This document shows, piece by piece, positions 6,457-40,010 of a stretch of DNA of 55,757 nt. Position 1 is the first letter of the stretch; each line of letters begins with the position of its first letter. The notes beneath the pieces were generated by a model, which did not search any database, was not told the origin of the DNA, and saw only the letters and a program-made list of their open reading frames with translations. The DNA is taken from the NCBI GenBank assembly GCA_028821605.1, contig JAPPFM010000003.1, forward strand, positions 93,388 through 149,144, given 5' to 3'. The DNA is from Candidatus Poribacteria bacterium (GTDB lineage: Bacteria; Poribacteria; WGA-4E; WGA-3G). The position numbers were made by a program, and so were the translations under genes.

Positions 6457-7425
6457 ATGTCCCACGTCCGAATTACGACCCCGTCCCGCTTACATTTTTC
6501 CCTCCTTGACTTGAACGGTGCCTTGGGACGAATTGATGGTGGCTTCGGTCTCGCAATTGATAAACCCAATTTCCAAATCATTGCTGAGCGGGCGACCGAT
6601 ATTCATGTGTCATCTTCGGTCTATCATGAACGCGCCTGTGGTGTTATTGCACGACTCCAAGAGACCTATCCTTTTCCGGGCATTAAATTGACATTTACGT
6701 CTGAAATCCCGATGCATTGCGGATTCGGATCTGGAACACAACTCTCTCTTGGTATTGCACAGGCTGTCAATGTCCTGTATGAACTTGGATTAGATGTGCA
6801 GGAATTAGCAACGACTGTTGGGCGTGGTGGTACTTCAGGTATCGGCGTTGCAGCGTTTGATGCGGGTGGATTCATCGTGGATGGCGGGCATCGTTTCCCT
6901 GAACAGAAGGCATCATTTCTCCCATCTTCTGCCGTTGGTGATATTCCACCACCGCCGATTTTACTTCGTTACTCGTTTCCAGAAGTGCCATTGTTGATCG
7001 TCGTACCGGAATGCTCGCGGATTTATGGCGATGAGGAAGTTGAGTTGTTTCGTACGCTCTGTCCACAACCGGAATGGACTGCTCAGAAACTTTCACACAC
7101 GCTATTGATGCAAATACTTCCTGCCCTTGTTGAGGGAGATATGTGCAGCTTTGGAAAAGCCTTAAATCAGATTCAGACGTTTGGATGGAAACGGGTGGAG
7201 ATTGATGCACAGGGTGCCGAGTTACAATTGACGCTTGACTTCTTACAAAACAAAGGGGCATTTGGGGCAGGCGTTAGCAGTTGGGGTGCGGCGATTTGTG
7301 TGATAGGTGAGGATGTCAATAGGTTAAAACGGGATACTGAGGCGTTCCTAAAGACGCTTCCGGGTGGTGGGACCTGTTTTATTACGCAGGCGAATAACGT
7401 TGGTGCAAGCGTTGTGACAGGTTGA
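6457..7425 (+). CDS. Beta-ribofuranosylaminobenzene 5'-phosphate synthase homologue (GHMP family)
   Basis: This 322-residue GHMP-superfamily protein resembles beta-RFAP synthase, which condenses p-hydroxybenzoate or p-aminobenzoate with PRPP at the first step of the tetrahydromethanopterin side chain. Supporting motifs are RITTPSRLHFSLLDLNG at the N-terminus, the glycine-rich loop PMHCGFGSGTQLSLGIA (about residues 85-101), RGGTSGIGVAAFDAGGFIVDGGH (about 128-150) and a late GAFGAGVSSWGAAI. The family is mostly archaeal plus methylotrophic bacteria and a few uncultivated phyla. No other H4MPT gene is in the window. The start ATG is 12 bases after the preceding small ORF; a terminator follows. 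Confidence 0.8.
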   Translation: MSHVRITTPSRLHFSLLDLNGALGRIDGGFGLAIDKPNFQIIAERATDIHVSSSVYHERACGVIARLQETYPFPGIKLTFTSEIPMHCGFGSGTQLSLGIAQAVNVLYELGLDVQELATTVGRGGTSGIGVAAFDAGGFIVDGGHRFPEQKASFLPSSAVGDIPPPPILLRYSFPEVPLLIVVPECSRIYGDEEVELFRTLCPQPEWTAQKLSHTLLMQILPALVEGDMCSFGKALNQIQTFGWKRVEIDAQGAELQLTLDFLQNKGAFGAGVSSWGAAICVIGEDVNRLKRDTEAFLKTLPGGGTCFITQANNVGASVVTG

Positions 7426-33626: not shown

Positions 33627-34655
33627 ATGGGTACCCAACAGATGGTTGATATGCAGAACTATAGCACCCTTTTTAGTTTATTTGACCGGTATCATAACTT
33701 TGCGCTCTCGACACATATTAACCCTGATGGCGATGCAATCGGTTCCGAACTGGGTCTTTACTTGTTTCTCACGAGACTGGGAAAATCTGTTAAAATGTTT
33801 AATACGGATGCGGTGCCCGCTAACTATAGATTTCTCCCGTTTTGGGATAGTATTGAGAGCACGCATTCTGTTGGAACGTATCGCCCAGAGGTATTGATCG
33901 TATTGGACGCAAGCACACTTGAGCGAATCGGCAAAGCTTTGTCCAAAACCTTGCATCCTACACATAGCCTCATTAACATTGACCATCACGCCACTGCCGA
34001 GGCATTCGGCGATATCAACCTCATTGTGCCCTCTGCCTCTTCCACTTCAGAGATTGTCTACAAACTCATTAAGTCCCATCAAACCCCGATAGACAAAGCA
34101 TGTGCCCTTTGTCTTTATACAGGGCTGATGTTTGATACCGGCTGTTTTCGCCATAGTAATACCACAGCTGAGACCCACCGAATCGCCTCGGACTTAATTG
34201 AGATAGGAGAGTTCTCTCCGGACGAGGTCTATCGAAATGTCTATGAGCAGGTGCCTGTTGCGAAGATACACCTGCTGAGTGAAGTCCTCAGCACATTGCA
34301 AGTAACGGATGATGGGAAGATAGCATCGGTATATGTAACACAGACAATGTTTCGCAAAACTGGAACAACTGCTGATGCTGTTGAGGGTATTGTAAACCAG
34401 ATTCAAGCGATTGCGGGTGTTGAAATAGCACTTTGCGCATCTGAGATGATGGATCGAAGTACGAAAGTGAGTCTGCGGAGTCAGAGTTGTGTTGATGTCA
34501 GTCAACTCGCCGCAGAGTTCGAGGGTGGCGGACATGCGCGCGCCGCCGGCTGTCGTATTGCTATGCCTTATCCCTTAGCGATTGCTGCCCTTGTTCAGGC
34601 TGCACAACGCTATATCGATCCGAGTCAGATGGAAGATGATTGCCAGAAGGATTGA
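33627..34655 (+). CDS. nrnA: DHH-family oligoribonuclease/pAp phosphatase NrnA
   Basis: This 342-residue protein has the DHH motifs STHINPDGDAIGSELGL, VLIVLDAS, LINIDHHATAEAFGDIN and TGLMFDTGCFRHSNT, and the DHHA1 motif GGGHARAAGCRI. NrnA degrades short RNA and 3'-phosphoadenosine 5'-phosphate and often lies after rbfA. The ATG at 33627 is used; in-frame ATGs at 33642 and 33651 are alternatives. In most genomes truB follows; here ribF begins 5 bases after the stop. Confidence 0.9.
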   Translation: MGTQQMVDMQNYSTLFSLFDRYHNFALSTHINPDGDAIGSELGLYLFLTRLGKSVKMFNTDAVPANYRFLPFWDSIESTHSVGTYRPEVLIVLDASTLERIGKALSKTLHPTHSLINIDHHATAEAFGDINLIVPSASSTSEIVYKLIKSHQTPIDKACALCLYTGLMFDTGCFRHSNTTAETHRIASDLIEIGEFSPDEVYRNVYEQVPVAKIHLLSEVLSTLQVTDDGKIASVYVTQTMFRKTGTTADAVEGIVNQIQAIAGVEIALCASEMMDRSTKVSLRSQSCVDVSQLAAEFEGGGHARAAGCRIAMPYPLAIAALVQAAQRYIDPSQMEDDCQKD

Positions 34656-34660
34656 ACAAC

Positions 34661-35632
34661 GTGGAAAACGCCTGTAGTAGGGGCGATCTACAGGTCGCAA
34701 CTACAATTTATAGTTTAGACGACATAGTTGAATTCGGCAGAGAAACCGTTGTTACTTTTGGTGTGTTTGATGGTATCCATGTTGGTCACCAATCAGTTAT
34801 TAACACCCTTCTTGAGCGGGCTACGCAAGATAAGTTAATGAGCGTATTGGTTGGTTTCTATCCACATCCCCTTGCATTCCTTGCCCCAGAACGATGTCCA
34901 CCTCTCCTGACACCTCTCTTTAAACGCGTCGAAATTCTTCAACAGTTTCGCATTGACAAAATCATCATGCTCAGTTTTGATGCTCAGATTGCCTCGATGT
35001 CTCCCGAATCTTTTGTAGAAAGAGTTCTCTTAGAGAAATGTCGAGCCAGACATATCGTGGTGGGGTATGCCTGTCAGTTTGGTAAAGACCGCGCTGGGAA
35101 TGCGGAACGGTTAGCGGAGTTTAGTCAGAAATATCCGTTTGATGTTTCCATTGTTCCACCTACAGAAATAAATGGGGCACCCGTTCATAGCACGCGTATC
35201 CGAGAGTCACTCGCGCGAGGCGATCTTAGGTGCAGTTTGCAGTTATTGGGACGTCCCTATTCCTTGATAGGTAATGTTGTTCGCGGCGATGGTCGTGGCA
35301 GAAAAATTGGATTTCCGACTGCTAATATAGACTTTCAAAATCAAGTCTGTCCTCCTAATGGCGTTTATGCTATCCGTGCCAAGTTAGAGGAGCGGCTGTT
35401 AGACGGCGTGTTGAATATTGGGACACGTCCTACATTTAATGGCATAGATGTTCAGGTGGAAGGACACTTCTTTGATTTTGATGAAATGATTTATGACAAA
35501 CCCGTAGAAATGTTTTTTGTAGAGAAAATTAGAGGTGAGCGGAAGTTTCCAAATCCAGAGCTTTTGGTTCAACAGATACAACGCGACATTGCAGATGCGG
35601 TGGACATTCTTTCGGAGCCTACTTCTTTATAG
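34661..35632 (+). CDS. ribF: Bifunctional riboflavin kinase/FAD synthetase RibF
   Basis: This 323-residue protein makes FMN and FAD. The N-terminal adenylyltransferase has VTFGVFDGIHVGHQSVI, FYPHPLAFL, VVGYACQFGKDRAGN and HSTRIRESLARGDL. The C-terminal kinase has LGRPYSLIGNVVRGDGRGRKIGFPTANI and GVLNIGTRPTFNG. I chose GTG 34661, with AGAAGGA about 10 bases upstream; TTG 34640 and 34652 overlap nrnA. The first about 15 residues (ENACSRGDLQVATT) are encoded by a small inverted repeat, so the N-terminus may have been extended by an inserted repeat. Confidence 0.93.
   Translation: MENACSRGDLQVATTIYSLDDIVEFGRETVVTFGVFDGIHVGHQSVINTLLERATQDKLMSVLVGFYPHPLAFLAPERCPPLLTPLFKRVEILQQFRIDKIIMLSFDAQIASMSPESFVERVLLEKCRARHIVVGYACQFGKDRAGNAERLAEFSQKYPFDVSIVPPTEINGAPVHSTRIRESLARGDLRCSLQLLGRPYSLIGNVVRGDGRGRKIGFPTANIDFQNQVCPPNGVYAIRAKLEERLLDGVLNIGTRPTFNGIDVQVEGHFFDFDEMIYDKPVEMFFVEKIRGERKFPNPELLVQQIQRDIADAVDILSEPTSL
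34673..34705. repeat. REP-like inverted repeat inside the start of ribF
   Basis: TGTAGT (34673-34678) pairs with ACTACA (34700-34705), and GCGA (34683-34686) with TCGC (34695-34698), around the loop TCTACAGG. It lies just after the chosen GTG start of ribF. Confidence 0.45.
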
Positions 35633-35678
35633 GCACTACCTCTTAAATCCAAACACGACTTGGCACCATGAGTTTAAT

Positions 35679-35707
35679 TTGAATTTTGGGTTGATTTGTG
35701 GTATTAT
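35679..35707 (+). promoter_or_regulatory. Promoter abutting the group II intron, probably the original rpsO-pnp promoter
   Basis: TTGAAT (35679-35684) and TATTAT (35702-35707) are 17 bases apart. The expected transcription start (about 35714) lies only a few bases before the intron at 35718. Without the intron this promoter would sit about 250 bases upstream of rpsO. Confidence 0.5.
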
Positions 35708-35768
35708 ATATGTATCAGTGCGTTTCAAAGAAATGTGTTGAAAAGTCGTAAGGATAAATAACACACTG

Positions 35769-35871
35769 GGCGGATAAGCATTAGGCAAATTGCCTAAGCA
35801 ATCCGCCTAATATGTTTCATAACTGTAGTGTAGATTGCCTAATAATCACTTAGGCAAATCATATCTACACT
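35769..35871. repeat. Two hairpins carrying four copies of TTAGGCAA, within intron domain I
   Basis: Hairpin 1 pairs GGCGGAT (35769-35775) with ATCCGCC (35801-35807) and, inside, TTAGGCAA (35781-35788) with TTGCCTAA (35790-35797). Hairpin 2 pairs AGTGTAGAT (35827-35835) with ATCTACACT (35863-35871) and, inside, TTGCCTAA (35835-35842) with TTAGGCAA (35850-35857). The octamer thus occurs four times, twice on each strand, just upstream of the small gene at 35889. Confidence 0.8.
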
Positions 35872-35888
35872 GTAGAGGAGGTGGCGAT

Positions 35889-36164
35889 ATGAAGAAACCA
35901 CCTTCAAATTCATATCAAATGGGGTCGGAAGATTTCGATACCCGATTTGATATGGATATGCTAAACATTGAGGCATTTGAAGAAAATCTCGAAAGAGAAA
36001 AACTCAAAGCTGAAGTGGATAGCGAAACGAAGACTGCTGTCAGAAATTACGCAATATCACCCGAACTGGTTAATTCTCTACTGAAAATAAGCCAACAAAG
36101 GAATGCATTAATTACTGATAGTATCAAAAGGACATTAGATGCGATGAATATAAACAACAACTAA
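35889..36164 (+). CDS. Small ribbon-helix-helix-like protein encoded in intron domain I
   Basis: This is a 91-residue protein with a strong ribosome binding site (GAGGAGGTG at 35876-35884) before ATG 35889. The first 50 residues are acidic; the last 40 read RNYAISPELVNSLLKISQQ, then RNALITDSIKRTLDAMN. That resembles a beta strand plus two helices, as in CopG/Arc-type DNA-binding proteins, with ITDSIKRTL like helix 2. The match is by eye and weak. It lies between two hairpin-rich intron segments, an unusual place for an intron gene. The octamer cluster upstream could be its operator. Confidence 0.5.
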   Translation: MKKPPSNSYQMGSEDFDTRFDMDMLNIEAFEENLEREKLKAEVDSETKTAVRNYAISPELVNSLLKISQQRNALITDSIKRTLDAMNINNN

Positions 36165-36171
36165 TGTCCAC

Positions 36172-36244
36172 CCAATTACCATTATACTAACCTATGCTGA
36201 AAGGTCATGTGCTAAAAGGTATAGGTTAGTAGATTGGTAGTTGG
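36172..36244. repeat. Long hairpin after the domain I gene
   Basis: CCAATTACC (36172-36180) pairs with GGTAGTTGG (36236-36244), one wobble. ACTAACCTAT (36186-36195) pairs perfectly with ATAGGTTAGT (36221-36230). It starts 8 bases after the stop of the small gene. It may be an intron helix (compare the CCAACC/GGTTGG helix of LtrB domain I) or a terminator-like end for the embedded gene, although it has no T-run. Confidence 0.7.
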
Positions 36245-36874
36245 ATTATCCAAGCGACCCAATCAACCTGTGATTGCGACTCTTACCTCAACTGCGTTGC
36301 TGGAAACGGCAGGGTAGGAAGCAGAGGGACAAGCAAGCACCATCATATAAGAACGGGATATGATGACGGAGCAGAGTAGAAAGGACAAGGATAAGACGAA
36401 AGTTGAATGGCTGTTTGACGCTTCGTAAATATAGAGATATAGAAACCGTTATGACACTATATCAAAGTATCTAAAGAGTAAAGGTCTTGATACGCCTTCA
36501 CTAAAGATTTTCTATTTTATGTTATGGAAAATAACAGGTCAATAAGGATACGCATATTGAGTTTCTCAATATATCGGAGTATAGGTCAATCCTAAATCCT
36601 TTTGTTTTAAAATCAACACGCGGAAATTGAAAAGTGTCTAAGTCATCTTAATAACAACTTCTACGCGATTTTAGTAATCAAATGGAAGTTAAAAAATTAA
36701 GAAGATATGACAGAGGAGGTTAGAAAAAGCGAAAAGACCTATCAAGACATAAAAGTGAATTCCATTTTATCTTTTTTAAAGATTTTTTTTTCGTTAAAAT
36801 AACGACCTAATGATTTTCATTGGGAAATCAGGTTGACGAAACGGATGAAAAATCAAACTATAAGGAGAAACAAA
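36245..36874 (+). other. Group II intron RNA core: rest of domain I to domain III, with EBS1
   Basis: There is no credible gene here. The stretch matches the catalytic-core position of the intron: GATATGATGACGG near 36354-36370 and the EBS1 loop TGATAC at 36488-36493, preceded by T36487 (delta). It becomes AT-rich toward 36700-36830, where domain IV with the ORFs should begin. Individual domain II and III helices were not drawn with confidence. Confidence 0.6.
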
Positions 36875-37183
36875 ATGGAGTTTGGAATTGTGTTTTGGTT
36901 CCTATTTGGATTAGTAGGCATAATTATTGCCAACTATAAAGGTCAGAGTGGTTGTCTGATGTTTGGACTATGCTTTATACTTGGTCCGATAGGCATAGCG
37001 ATCCAATTACTAATGCCAACAAATATCCGAAGAAAACAACGTAGATTAATAAACAAGGGAGAAATGAAACGTTGTGATGCTTGTTCGGAATTAGTAATAA
37101 TCACAGCGACTAAATGTCGATACTGTGGAGAAACGCTAATCTATAAACCGAAGGTGAAAAGCAGACTAAATAAGAGGAAATAA
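36875..37183 (+). CDS. Two-TM zinc-ribbon membrane protein carried in the intron
   Basis: From ATG 36875 (AAGGAG at 36862-36867) the protein has 102 residues. Two hydrophobic helices (FGIVFWFLFGLVGIIIANY, and CLMFGLCFILGPIGIAIQLL) are followed by a basic linker and a zinc ribbon, CDAC...CRYC (about residues 67-86), with a basic tail. Small membrane zinc-ribbon proteins of this plan are widespread chromosomal genes of unknown function and are not a known group II intron component. It ends 88 bases before the reverse transcriptase start. Confidence 0.65.
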   Translation: MEFGIVFWFLFGLVGIIIANYKGQSGCLMFGLCFILGPIGIAIQLLMPTNIRRKQRRLINKGEMKRCDACSELVIITATKCRYCGETLIYKPKVKSRLNKRK

Positions 37184-37271
37184 CCAATCTAATCGCAAAG
37201 CCTAACCAGATTTGAAGTTTTAGAAGGTGAAGCAAGGATTTAATTATTCACTAATTCACATATATTTGATT

Positions 37272-38957
37272 ATGAATAAAGATAGCATATTCAACGTAGA
37301 AAATATAAGAGAATGTGAAGATTATGTTCTCTCAATCCAATTTTCGCTGGATAAAGCGGTTGCTATGGATGATACTAAAGTCATTCACAGATATTTTGAC
37401 CTATTATGCAAAAGGTCGGAAGCCGTTAGGATACTTGCTGTTAATCGGATAACCCGAATAAATCAAGGCAAGTATACGGCAGGGGTAGACGGCATAAAAA
37501 CGCCAAGAGATAGTAAGGAAGCGATGCTTTTCAGAAAACGTCTATTATCAGAAATAGATATAGAAAAGCCGCCAGACCTAATCAAAAGGGTTTATATTCC
37601 TAAATCAAAAGGCAATATGCGTCCGCTTGGAATACCGACTATAGCAGATAGGGTTATTCAAGAAATCTATCGGATAGCATTATCACCGATAACGGAATAC
37701 CACTTCCACGATAATAGTTATGGATTTCGTCCATATAGAAGTTGTCAAGATGCACAAGCACATCTATTTCTAAAACTATCAAGGAATAATTGTCCGAAAT
37801 ATGTTTTAGAGGGAGATATTAAGGGTTGTTTTGACAATATCAATCACAACCATATACTTAATACCTTGAGTGATTGGCAAGTTCCAGAATGGGCAATGCT
37901 AAATATAAGCAAAATCCTAAAGAGTGGAATAATGGAAGATGATAAGATATATGATAATGTTAGAGGCACGCCACAAGGTGGAGTTATTTCGCCTATGCTT
38001 GCCAACGTAGCATTAACAACCCTTGACTTCCATTGCCTACAATATAATGATTATGGCAATAACCCAATAGTCAGATATGCTGATGATTTTGTTATTGTCT
38101 GTAAATCAGAAAAGCAAGCAAAAGAAATAAAGGAAGATATAACCTATCATCTGAAAAAGGTTGTCAGTCTTGAGTTATCCGATGAGAAAACTAAAATAAC
38201 CCATATCAATAAAGGTTTCAACTTTTTAGGTTTTAACTTTAGAAAGCATAAACCGAAAGGGATTAGAAAATATCAAAATCCAAATCGGGTGCTTCTTATT
38301 ATGCCTGAAAAAGAAAAGGTTTATGAACTCCTTTATGAAATAAAAAAGGAACTCAAAAAGTCCCAAAACTTATCACAGGAAGAAGTAATTGATTTACTGA
38401 ATCCGAAGTTAAGAGGATTTGGATATTATTACCGCCATGTTTGTAGTAAAAAGACTTATACTAAAATTGATTATCATGTATGGGTCAAATTACTAAAATG
38501 GGCAACCAGAAAACATAGCGGTAAAAATAAACAATGGGTTCTTAATAACTTATTTCATAATTTCAATAATCAAACCTACCATTTCAGAGATGATAAAAGC
38601 GATAAATCAATCTTTTCAATGAAAGGTATTGAAATAAACCGATTTGTGAAAATGAAGCAAAATCATCGCGTTTATGATAATAATGATAAGGTTCAGAGTT
38701 ATTGGCAAAAACGGATAACTATGAATGCTTACAATGTTGTTTCTTCCAAAAGAAGAAGGTCAATTTTCAATAGACAAAATGGCAAATGTGCCTTCTGTCA
38801 TAAGTTTATCACTGCCGATGAAATAGTTGATAATCAAATTGAACTTGACCATATACAACCAATCAGCAAAGGCGGAACTAATAGGCTATGCAACCTACGG
38901 CTTGTTCACGCCGATTGTCATAAAGAAATCCATAAAGGAAAGGAAATCTTATCCTAA
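37272..38957 (+). CDS. ltrA: Group II intron-encoded reverse transcriptase/maturase with HNH endonuclease
   Basis: From ATG 37272 the protein has 561 residues. RT blocks are YIPKSKGNMRPLGIPTIADR, SYGFRPYRSCQDA, LEGDIKGCFDNI, GTPQGGVISPMLANV and the catalytic RYADDFVI (YADD about 269-272). Maturase domain X follows (LNPKLRGFGYYYRHVCSK). A C-terminal HNH nuclease (about 496-553) has CAFC, ELDHIQPISKGGTN, LRLVHADCHKEIH. All catalytic motifs are intact, so the intron may be active for splicing and retrohoming. The start is uncertain; GTG 37227 is in frame, and no strong ribosome binding site marks either. Confidence 0.95.
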   Translation: MNKDSIFNVENIRECEDYVLSIQFSLDKAVAMDDTKVIHRYFDLLCKRSEAVRILAVNRITRINQGKYTAGVDGIKTPRDSKEAMLFRKRLLSEIDIEKPPDLIKRVYIPKSKGNMRPLGIPTIADRVIQEIYRIALSPITEYHFHDNSYGFRPYRSCQDAQAHLFLKLSRNNCPKYVLEGDIKGCFDNINHNHILNTLSDWQVPEWAMLNISKILKSGIMEDDKIYDNVRGTPQGGVISPMLANVALTTLDFHCLQYNDYGNNPIVRYADDFVIVCKSEKQAKEIKEDITYHLKKVVSLELSDEKTKITHINKGFNFLGFNFRKHKPKGIRKYQNPNRVLLIMPEKEKVYELLYEIKKELKKSQNLSQEEVIDLLNPKLRGFGYYYRHVCSKKTYTKIDYHVWVKLLKWATRKHSGKNKQWVLNNLFHNFNNQTYHFRDDKSDKSIFSMKGIEINRFVKMKQNHRVYDNNDKVQSYWQKRITMNAYNVVSSKRRRSIFNRQNGKCAFCHKFITADEIVDNQIELDHIQPISKGGTNRLCNLRLVHADCHKEIHKGKEILS

Positions 38958-39392
38958 TACTTCCTTCCTTCTTATTAGATATTATACTAACTAATGGGAA
39001 AATGAAGGGAAAATCTATAGGGCAAATAATCCGTAAACCTTATGGGTTGATAAAGACTGAAGGAAAAAAACGCAATAAATTCCATGAAGTTTTTATCAAC
39101 CCACCTATATGGGGAAGGAAAAACGCCAAATCTCCGAACCATTATTATTATAGGATAAAATAAGGTATAAGCCAAATTATTCGCCCATTGTGATTGTTTG
39201 TGAAATATGTCATAATAACCTTAGTGGATAATCTAATAATATCTAAAAAGGGTTTTAGGGCGAATTATAGCATAACCAATCCGAAATATAGAGGTTTTAG
39301 GGCGATTTCGTTTGACTTCTATCCATAAATGCTATATAATTATAGTATAAGATAGTGGGTTTCATAAAAGCGATAATCCATATCAAATGGGA
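38958..39392 (+). other. Distal part of intron domain IV
   Basis: AT-rich sequence without a credible gene, lying between the reverse transcriptase stop and domain V. A partly repeated motif is visible: ttttagggcgaatta near 39250 and ttttagggcgatttc near 39295. Confidence 0.55.
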
Positions 39393-39467
39393 AAGCCGTG
39401 TGCCGTGAAAGTGGCACGCACGGTTTGGAGAAAGGGGTGGATGAGTGATTATCTGTCCCTATTCTAC
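39393..39467 (+). ncRNA. Group II intron domains V and VI
   Basis: Domain V occupies 39393-39426 (34 nt): AAGCCGTG with the catalytic AGC at 39394-39396, a GAAA tetraloop at 39407-39410, and the CACGGTTT return strand. Domain VI follows: 39433-39444 pairs with 39449-39460 around a GTGA loop (39445-39448), 39429-39432 pairs with 39462-39465, and A39461 is left bulged between them, 7 bases from the 3' end. That is the expected branch point. The intron ends AC at 39466-39467. Confidence 0.95.
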
Positions 39468-39551
39468 AATGTCGAGAAAAACGGAAGCGATGTCCTGAAT
39501 ATGGTTTAGTTTCCGCCTCATATAGTATCGCAGAATTTCCTTTATGGGTAG

Positions 39552-39642
39552 AGGACTTACGCAATTTGCTGATAACTACGGACATTTCACACGCCGCTGG
39601 CGAGGTTTCAAACCTCGTCAGCAACGAAGCTGCGTAAATCCT
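39552..39642. repeat. MITE-like element, copy B (inverted relative to copy A)
   Basis: Terminal inverted repeats are AGGACTTACGCA (39552-39563) and TGCGTAAATCCT (39631-39642). The inner palindrome CTGGCGAGGTTT-C-AAACCTCGTCAG is nearly that of copy A. Its reverse complement aligns along the whole of 32814-32907. It lies in the rpsO leader, 84 bases after the intron. Confidence 0.85.
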
Positions 39643-39719
39643 GATGGGCTATTTTTCTCGAATTTTGCAAGTTTCCCAAACTTGTTGTTAGTTGTTCAAC
39701 TTAAAGGAGGTGAACGCAA

Positions 39720-40010
39720 TTGGCAATTGATGCAGCAGAGAAGAAGGAATTGATCCAACAGTACCAAATACACCAACAAGACACCGGTTCACCGGAGGCT
39801 CAAGTGGCAATTTTGACTGCGCGTATTCAACAGTTGACTGAACACTTTCAGACGCACCGGAAGGATTACCATTCGCGTTATGGACTTTACCGACTCGTTG
39901 GCAAACAACGCCGCCTGTTACGGTATCTTTACAAAAAAGACGTTACGCGCTATTACCGTTTAATTAATGAACTCGGAATTCGTGACACCATTGGACAGAG
40001 GAGCAGTTAG
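39720..40010 (+). CDS. rpsO: Ribosomal protein S15
   Basis: This 96-residue protein (usual length about 89) binds 16S rRNA in the platform. [51 protein letters not shown] is the S15 core, with the [11 protein letters not shown]-binding loop. The start is TTG 39720, set by a perfect AAAGGAGGTG at 39703-39712; the next in-frame ATG would remove the conserved N-terminus. It lies upstream of pnp as in most bacteria. S15 often represses its own mRNA, but no such structure was identified here; the leader is interrupted by the intron and a MITE-like element. Confidence 0.95.

Follow-up and report, generated by a model that had tools for sequence, protein, structure and literature searches.

The 55,757-nucleotide (nt) stretch of a Candidatus Poribacteria genome analyzed here (assembly GCA_028821605.1, contig JAPPFM010000003.1, positions 93,388 to 149,144; hereafter the window) contains a complete group II intron of 3750 bp, situated in the rpsO promoter/leader between ribF (34640–35632) and rpsO (39720–40010). 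We read it, with a probability of roughly 0.86, as a retromobile intron inserted at or just past the rpsO transcription start that carries, besides its reverse transcriptase (RT), two passenger genes unrelated to mobility: an orphan (gene 1) in domain I and a host-derived zinc-ribbon gene (gene 2) in domain IV. A first-pass annotation, made from the sequence alone, had already proposed a gene-bearing intron, and comparison with the rest of the intron family strengthens that view.

Boundaries and catalytic RNA

The extent of the intron is defined by three relatives (G006, G008 and G017) in which the ribF–rpsO site is uninterrupted. When the flanks (35501–35717 and 39468 onward) are joined, they align without a gap across 35717|39468 to G006 (90%), G008 (88%) and G017 (83%). 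Relative to these genomes, the whole 3750 bp, gene 1 included, therefore represents one insertion. At the boundaries set by the empty sites, the intron begins with GTGCG at 35718 and terminates with AC at 39466–39467, conforming to the GUGYG/AY consensus, so both ends annotated earlier as intact hold to the base. An assembly chimera is unlikely, because the same architecture recurs in ten genomes and the junctions match the empty sites. Between the intron and rpsO lies a repeat of ~95 bp (about 39549–39643) resembling a miniature inverted-repeat transposable element, with the ends GGACTTACGCA/TGCGTAAATCC; the empty-site relatives lack it, and elsewhere in the genome more than ten sites match its first half.

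Domain I is closed by two helices, in which 35723–35728 pairs with 36627–36632 and 35734–35741 with 36613–36620. Across 15 related introns, helix I(i) is paired in 90 of 90 cells (shuffled partners: mean 54, maximum 70 in 2000 shuffles) and helix I(ii) in 115 of 120 (mean 85, maximum 101); the counts cover related sequences, yet the partner strands vary among the introns. Moreover, 35718 alone among 900 window positions reaches the level of 13 of 14 domain I pairs. In the unconstrained minimum-energy fold of 35718–36760, gene 1 is enclosed in the loop of a single hairpin (stem 35745–35757/36246–36258), and the loop of this first domain I hairpin is only 4–7 nt long in relatives. Gene 1 has thus been inserted into a loop within domain I, and the core helices are undisturbed.

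One feature could have placed the 5′ end elsewhere. GTGCG at 35718 is separated from a conserved domain I motif by 569 nt, compared with 72–82 nt in relatives, whereas a GTGCT near 36208 precedes the same motif by about 80 nt, as is usual in relatives; an intron beginning there would leave gene 1 in the 5′ flank and gene 2 as the sole intronic passenger. We consider this extremely improbable and reject it on the empty-site alignment and the domain I pairing: insertion starts at 35718 in every comparison with an empty site, and a start at 36208/36209 yields only 7–8 of 14 pairs with the 3′ strand of domain I, versus 14 of 14 for 35718. In addition, the intron-binding site 1 (IBS1) that would precede 36208 matches exon-binding site 1 (EBS1) at about one position in six, and in the fold the GTGCT falls in the loop of a long hairpin. 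The first-pass annotation had named a 5′ end downstream of 36164 as evidence that would speak against it, and the same alignment and pairing place the end well upstream of that point.

The remaining catalytic elements also agree with what had been described by eye. Domains V and VI match Rfam family Intron_gpII (RF00029) at 66.5 bits (cut-off 40, E 6e-11), and A39461, 7 nt from the intron 3′ end, is unpaired by inspection. EBS1 and IBS1 form Watson–Crick pairs at all six positions; at the aligned place a relative, L056, has CTAATCC, which pairs 7/7 with its own exon. T36487, beside EBS1, could pair with A39468, making the delta–delta′ interaction possible. The Rfam covariance model for domains I–IV, group-II-D1D4-7, scores 28.7 bits on the window intron (gathering cut-off 34) and 38.4 on one relative. 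Taken as a whole, the sequence evidence makes assignment to group II firm; self-splicing and retromobility would be expected from the relatives and the empty site.

The intron-encoded protein of 561 amino acids (aa) retains intact RT (RVT_1, 1e-41), maturase (GIIM, 1e-18) and HNH (6e-8) domains, just as the first reading of its motifs had suggested, and passes the NCBIfam model group_II_RT_mat (TIGR04416) with 341 bits against a cut-off of 300. A profile search detected no LAGLIDADG domain among the open reading frames (ORFs) of the window intron, in which an RT is present instead. Scanning genome contigs with RT peptides produced only unrelated HNH matches.

The two passenger genes

Both extra ORFs are longer than any obtained in 100 shuffles of their own zones, and each is preceded by a Shine–Dalgarno-like sequence (GGAGG for gene 1, AAGGAG for gene 2), consistent with the good ribosome binding sites noted before.

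Gene 2 is the better defined of the two. It falls below the cut-off in Pfam searches but matches phrog_8436 at 5e-12 and free-standing genes of relatives with E values of 1e-21 to 1e-23. A transmembrane segment with the signature KGxSGC...LGPxG accompanies the CxxC...CxxC ribbon, and all four cysteines are kept. Judged by its sequence, gene 2 belongs to a genuine family of small membrane zinc-ribbon proteins that are free-standing in relatives; its original description as a membrane zinc-ribbon gene was right in kind.

For gene 1, whose start we corrected to 35889 (91 aa), no homologue was found in 98 related genomes, viral contigs or plasmids, and no family profile in Pfam or NCBIfam matched. 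The AlphaFold2 model consists of two helices with no strand, at a low predicted template modelling score (pTM 0.34). The proposed placement in domain I stands on the helix pairing conserved across the family, whereas the proposed ribbon-helix-helix character, which would call for a beta strand ahead of two helices, finds no support in either the profiles or the model. A dispersed element was also considered for this region, which matches only its own copy in the genome. Upstream of gene 1, at 35769–35880, are two strong nested palindromes with the common motif TTGCCTAA/TTAGGC; they could be regulatory hairpins or remains of the original context of gene 1.

Cargo and insertion sites across the intron family

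The RT occurs in 16 of 85 genomes of the phylum, most of them from one bacterial family, and 15 full-length introns could be compared. Five (L018, L053, L054, L056 and L058) are cargo-free and measure 2.25–2.45 kb. The other ten, at 2.9–3.9 kb, hold 0.5–1.5 kb of additional material in domains I, II or IV, with clear extra ORFs in nine of them (Table 1); the 59-aa ORF of L064 and the L061 insert in domain IV are doubtful as cargo. Inserts in L062 and L063 that had been candidates for domain III were assigned by the folds to domain II. The longest ORF runs in the intron's own (sense) direction in 12 of 14 extra zones, mostly beyond the length seen in shuffled sequence.

The cargo turns over. 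L060 and L061, orthologous introns sharing a site, have an identity of about 90%, yet domain II of L061 holds one gene more and its segment before domain V is unrelated. Similarly, in L052 and L055, another orthologous pair at a shared site, identity is 85% as far as the RT gene extends and 90% over the final 99 nt, but the genes separating these two stretches differ. Host origin is evident for several families: gene 2 and two further cargo families have free-standing chromosomal copies with no intron nearby.

Could the ORFs be fortuitous or decaying, in an immobile intron whose peripheral loops simply tolerate random DNA? The missing homologues of gene 1 would fit, as would the domain IV zones of L061 and L064, where the longest ORFs are antisense and none is convincing. 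Nevertheless, we regard this as unlikely: the RT–maturase–HNH protein is intact, gene 2 retains the cysteines and motifs of its family, and several ORFs of relatives, like genes 1 and 2, exceed all 100 shuffles. It is also at odds with the recurrence of cargo in ten introns, with the sense bias and with one passenger having been kept at two insertion sites.

That passenger, of the MKDKIV type, is found in L057, at the promoter of a TonB gene, and in L060 and L063, at the promoter of a Rieske gene. In a small tree of eight rows, the three intron-borne versions form one clade against five free-standing copies (100/100), and the RTs of the three introns likewise share one clade (100/99). On the sequence evidence, the simplest reading would be that the passenger was captured once and then moved together with its intron, though the cargo may instead have passed between introns by recombination. 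The same tree bears on whether passengers are generally acquired in place after insertion, as local accidents at each site, and do not move with the intron. Different cargo in orthologous introns at one site is what such acquisition would produce, as is a window intron with no second copy carrying the same genes; a passenger family that is monophyletic relative to its free copies and yet present at two different promoters is not. We consider in-place acquisition a serious possibility, though clearly the less probable one. The earlier proposal that the intron can move its passengers accordingly finds support in the family, in which one monophyletic passenger occupies two insertion sites, but not for the window copy, the single carrier of both genes. 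The first-pass annotation had set another condition as well, that its view would suffer if relatives of the intron were free of both genes and the genes were met elsewhere on their own; this turned out to be half true: a sister intron in the same genome has neither gene, and relatives of gene 2 are free-standing. Capture of host genes would produce such a pattern, which is compatible with carriage by the intron.

L057 additionally contains a tRNA-Gly(GCC) gene (7128–7201) that overlaps the 3′ end of its RT gene.

Insertion sites give an indication of splicing. In L052, L055 and L056 the intron interrupts the D-loop of a tRNA-Arg gene; joining the exons restores tRNA-Arg(CCT) in the first two, which carry cargo, and tRNA-Arg(ACG) in the cargo-free L056. 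No intact second copy of the interrupted gene was found in the three genomes searched (93–94% complete). Since L052 and L055 split the only detected tRNA-Arg(CCT), exact splicing is required if that tRNA is needed. The split genes therefore imply that relatives are spliced precisely in vivo, and the window intron would probably behave likewise.

The other insertion context is a promoter. Seven introns at four independent sites (rpsO, Rieske, TonB and atp), namely the window intron, L057, L059 and L060–L063, lie near the transcription start of housekeeping genes, 9–13 nt downstream of a sigma70-type −10 element. Five of the seven promoters have perfect hexamers (12/12) and a 17-nt spacer; among random 60-mers, about 1.2% score 9 or more at a similar distance. 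The rpsO promoter block is conserved in intron-less relatives. That these introns sit where transcription from consensus promoters begins suggests a preferred kind of target, possibly arising from insertion into the open promoter bubble.

L018, the second intron of the same genome, is located between ssb and rpsR (2905–2920 and 5317) and starts with GAGCG rather than GTGCG. It splits the ssb stop codon, which reads T|GA unspliced and T|AA spliced; the unusual second base keeps a stop in the unspliced form.

Several observations weigh against the interpretation given at the outset. Gene 1, lacking homologues, could be a chance or decaying ORF. A second intron copy with genes 1 and 2 was not found in any genome searched, which makes their joint movement a prediction for this copy. 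The promoter-proximal position would leave the transcript with a very short 5′ exon, only a few bases long, a possible hindrance to forward splicing, and support in the RT tree near the window intron is weak (57/75).

Table 1. Features of the window intron and location of cargo in the intron family
Feature	Position	Strand	Evidence or details
rpsO promoter, sigma70-type: −35 TTGAAT (35679–35684), 17-nt spacer, −10 TATTAT (35702–35707)	35679–35707	+	10 nt upstream of intron
IBS1 GTATCA, last six bases of 5′ exon	35712–35717	+	sequence; 6/6 pairing with EBS1
Complete group II intron	35718–39467	+	empty-site alignments, domains V/VI, domain I helices
Domain I, 5′ GTGCG, helices I(i) and I(ii)	35718–36632	+	helix pairing, folds
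Domain I peripheral hairpin, GTCGT-GGATAA (35745–35757)/TTATCC-GCGAC (36246–36258)	35745–36258	+	unconstrained fold; relatives
Passenger gene 1, 91-aa orphan protein, Shine–Dalgarno GGAGG	35889–36164	+	ORF, homology searches, shuffles
EBS1 TGATAC	36488–36493	+	sequence, alignment with relatives
Domains II and III, approximate limits	36635–36760	+	alignment with 10 relatives, folds
Passenger gene 2, 102-aa membrane protein, C-terminal zinc ribbon CxxC...CxxC, domain IV upstream of RT gene	36875–37183	+	
RT–maturase–HNH endonuclease, 561 aa, domain IV	37272–38957	+	Pfam/NCBIfam profiles
Domains V and VI; catalytic AGC 39394–39396; candidate branch-point A39461	39391–39467	+	RF00029
Cargo in domain I			window intron (gene 1)
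Cargo in domain II			L061, 49 aa; L062, 62 + 81 aa; L063, lipoprotein-like, 124 aa
Cargo in domain IV before RT			window intron (gene 2)
Cargo in domain IV between RT and domain V			L052, 107 aa; L055, 126 aa; L057, 135 aa; L059, 175 aa; L060, 138 aa; L063, 138 + 77 aa

Proposed working and relation to known systems

Under the interpretation of a retromobile intron with two passengers, the rpsO promoter would transcribe the intron and rpsO as one RNA. The RT and both passengers would be translated from the precursor or the intron RNA by way of their own Shine–Dalgarno sites, and the ribozyme, assisted by the maturase, would excise all 3750 nt and restore the native rpsO leader. Because the passengers sit in loops that spare the core helices, they should be copied along with the intron during reverse splicing and reverse transcription. 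Over time, chromosomal gene families of the host would supply passengers that are later exchanged, the few permissive places being the domain I hairpin, the domain II hairpin and domain IV both before and after the RT gene. Capture may proceed by template switching of the RT onto mRNA, which the sense bias fits, or by DNA recombination. We offer, at slightly less than even odds, a broader view in which this lineage has turned into a cargo-carrying retroelement, with defined docking loops in domains I, II and IV for the capture and exchange of host genes, siting where strong housekeeping promoters start transcription or in tRNA-Arg D-loops, which permits harmless high expression of the cargo, and transport of the passengers by retrohoming.

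If true, a natural family that carries and exchanges host genes, in domain I as well, while keeping its RT–HNH protein and core helices intact would make introns gene vehicles akin to transposons. Such introns would provide natural templates for long-cargo tolerance in a group II ribozyme, which is relevant to targetron engineering, and would open to experiment the question of how cellular genes come to be captured by a retroelement, one candidate route being a switch of the RT to mRNA templates.

Group II introns are normally seen as purely self-propagating, with a single protein encoded in domain IV. Reviews likewise give them one protein in that domain, or none (PMC4424553). The window intron resembles bacterial RT–maturase–HNH introns (IIB/chloroplast-like) in its GUGYG start, domain V AGC, candidate branch A in domain VI, EBS1–IBS1 pairing and RT-X-HNH protein, but unlike them it bears two extra non-mobility genes, one of them in domain I, with those of its relatives in domains II and IV. 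In LAGLIDADG group II introns, too, an ORF can lie outside domain IV; the reported locations are domains IB, III and IV (PMC13190283). Those introns, however, have lost the RT and their ORF is itself the mobility enzyme, whereas the window intron keeps its RT–HNH protein and its extra genes are not mobility enzymes. Homing endonucleases have also been reported in phage introns (PMC12350094). CL1 (IIB1) introns have been described as bearing a long insert close to their 5′ end (PMC4028801, citing Michel et al. 2007). In this they are like the window intron, which has hundreds of nucleotides inserted in the corresponding part. The CL1 insertions reported by Michel et al. are said to be modifications of the RNA linked to the 5′ splice site, upstream of GUGYG; if so, the window intron differs, with its GUGCG at the splice site and insertion boundary and the inserted gene in a domain I hairpin loop. 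A search of the open literature, with subscription papers outside its reach, returned no group II intron that encodes an RT and also carries passengers unrelated to mobility. Twintrons and IStrons are comparable in that a ribozyme intron holds extra genetic material, but no second intron or transposase was found in the window intron and its passengers are ordinary small genes of host type. As a group II intron the element is of a known kind; what appears to be new is the cargo, the places it occupies and its turnover.

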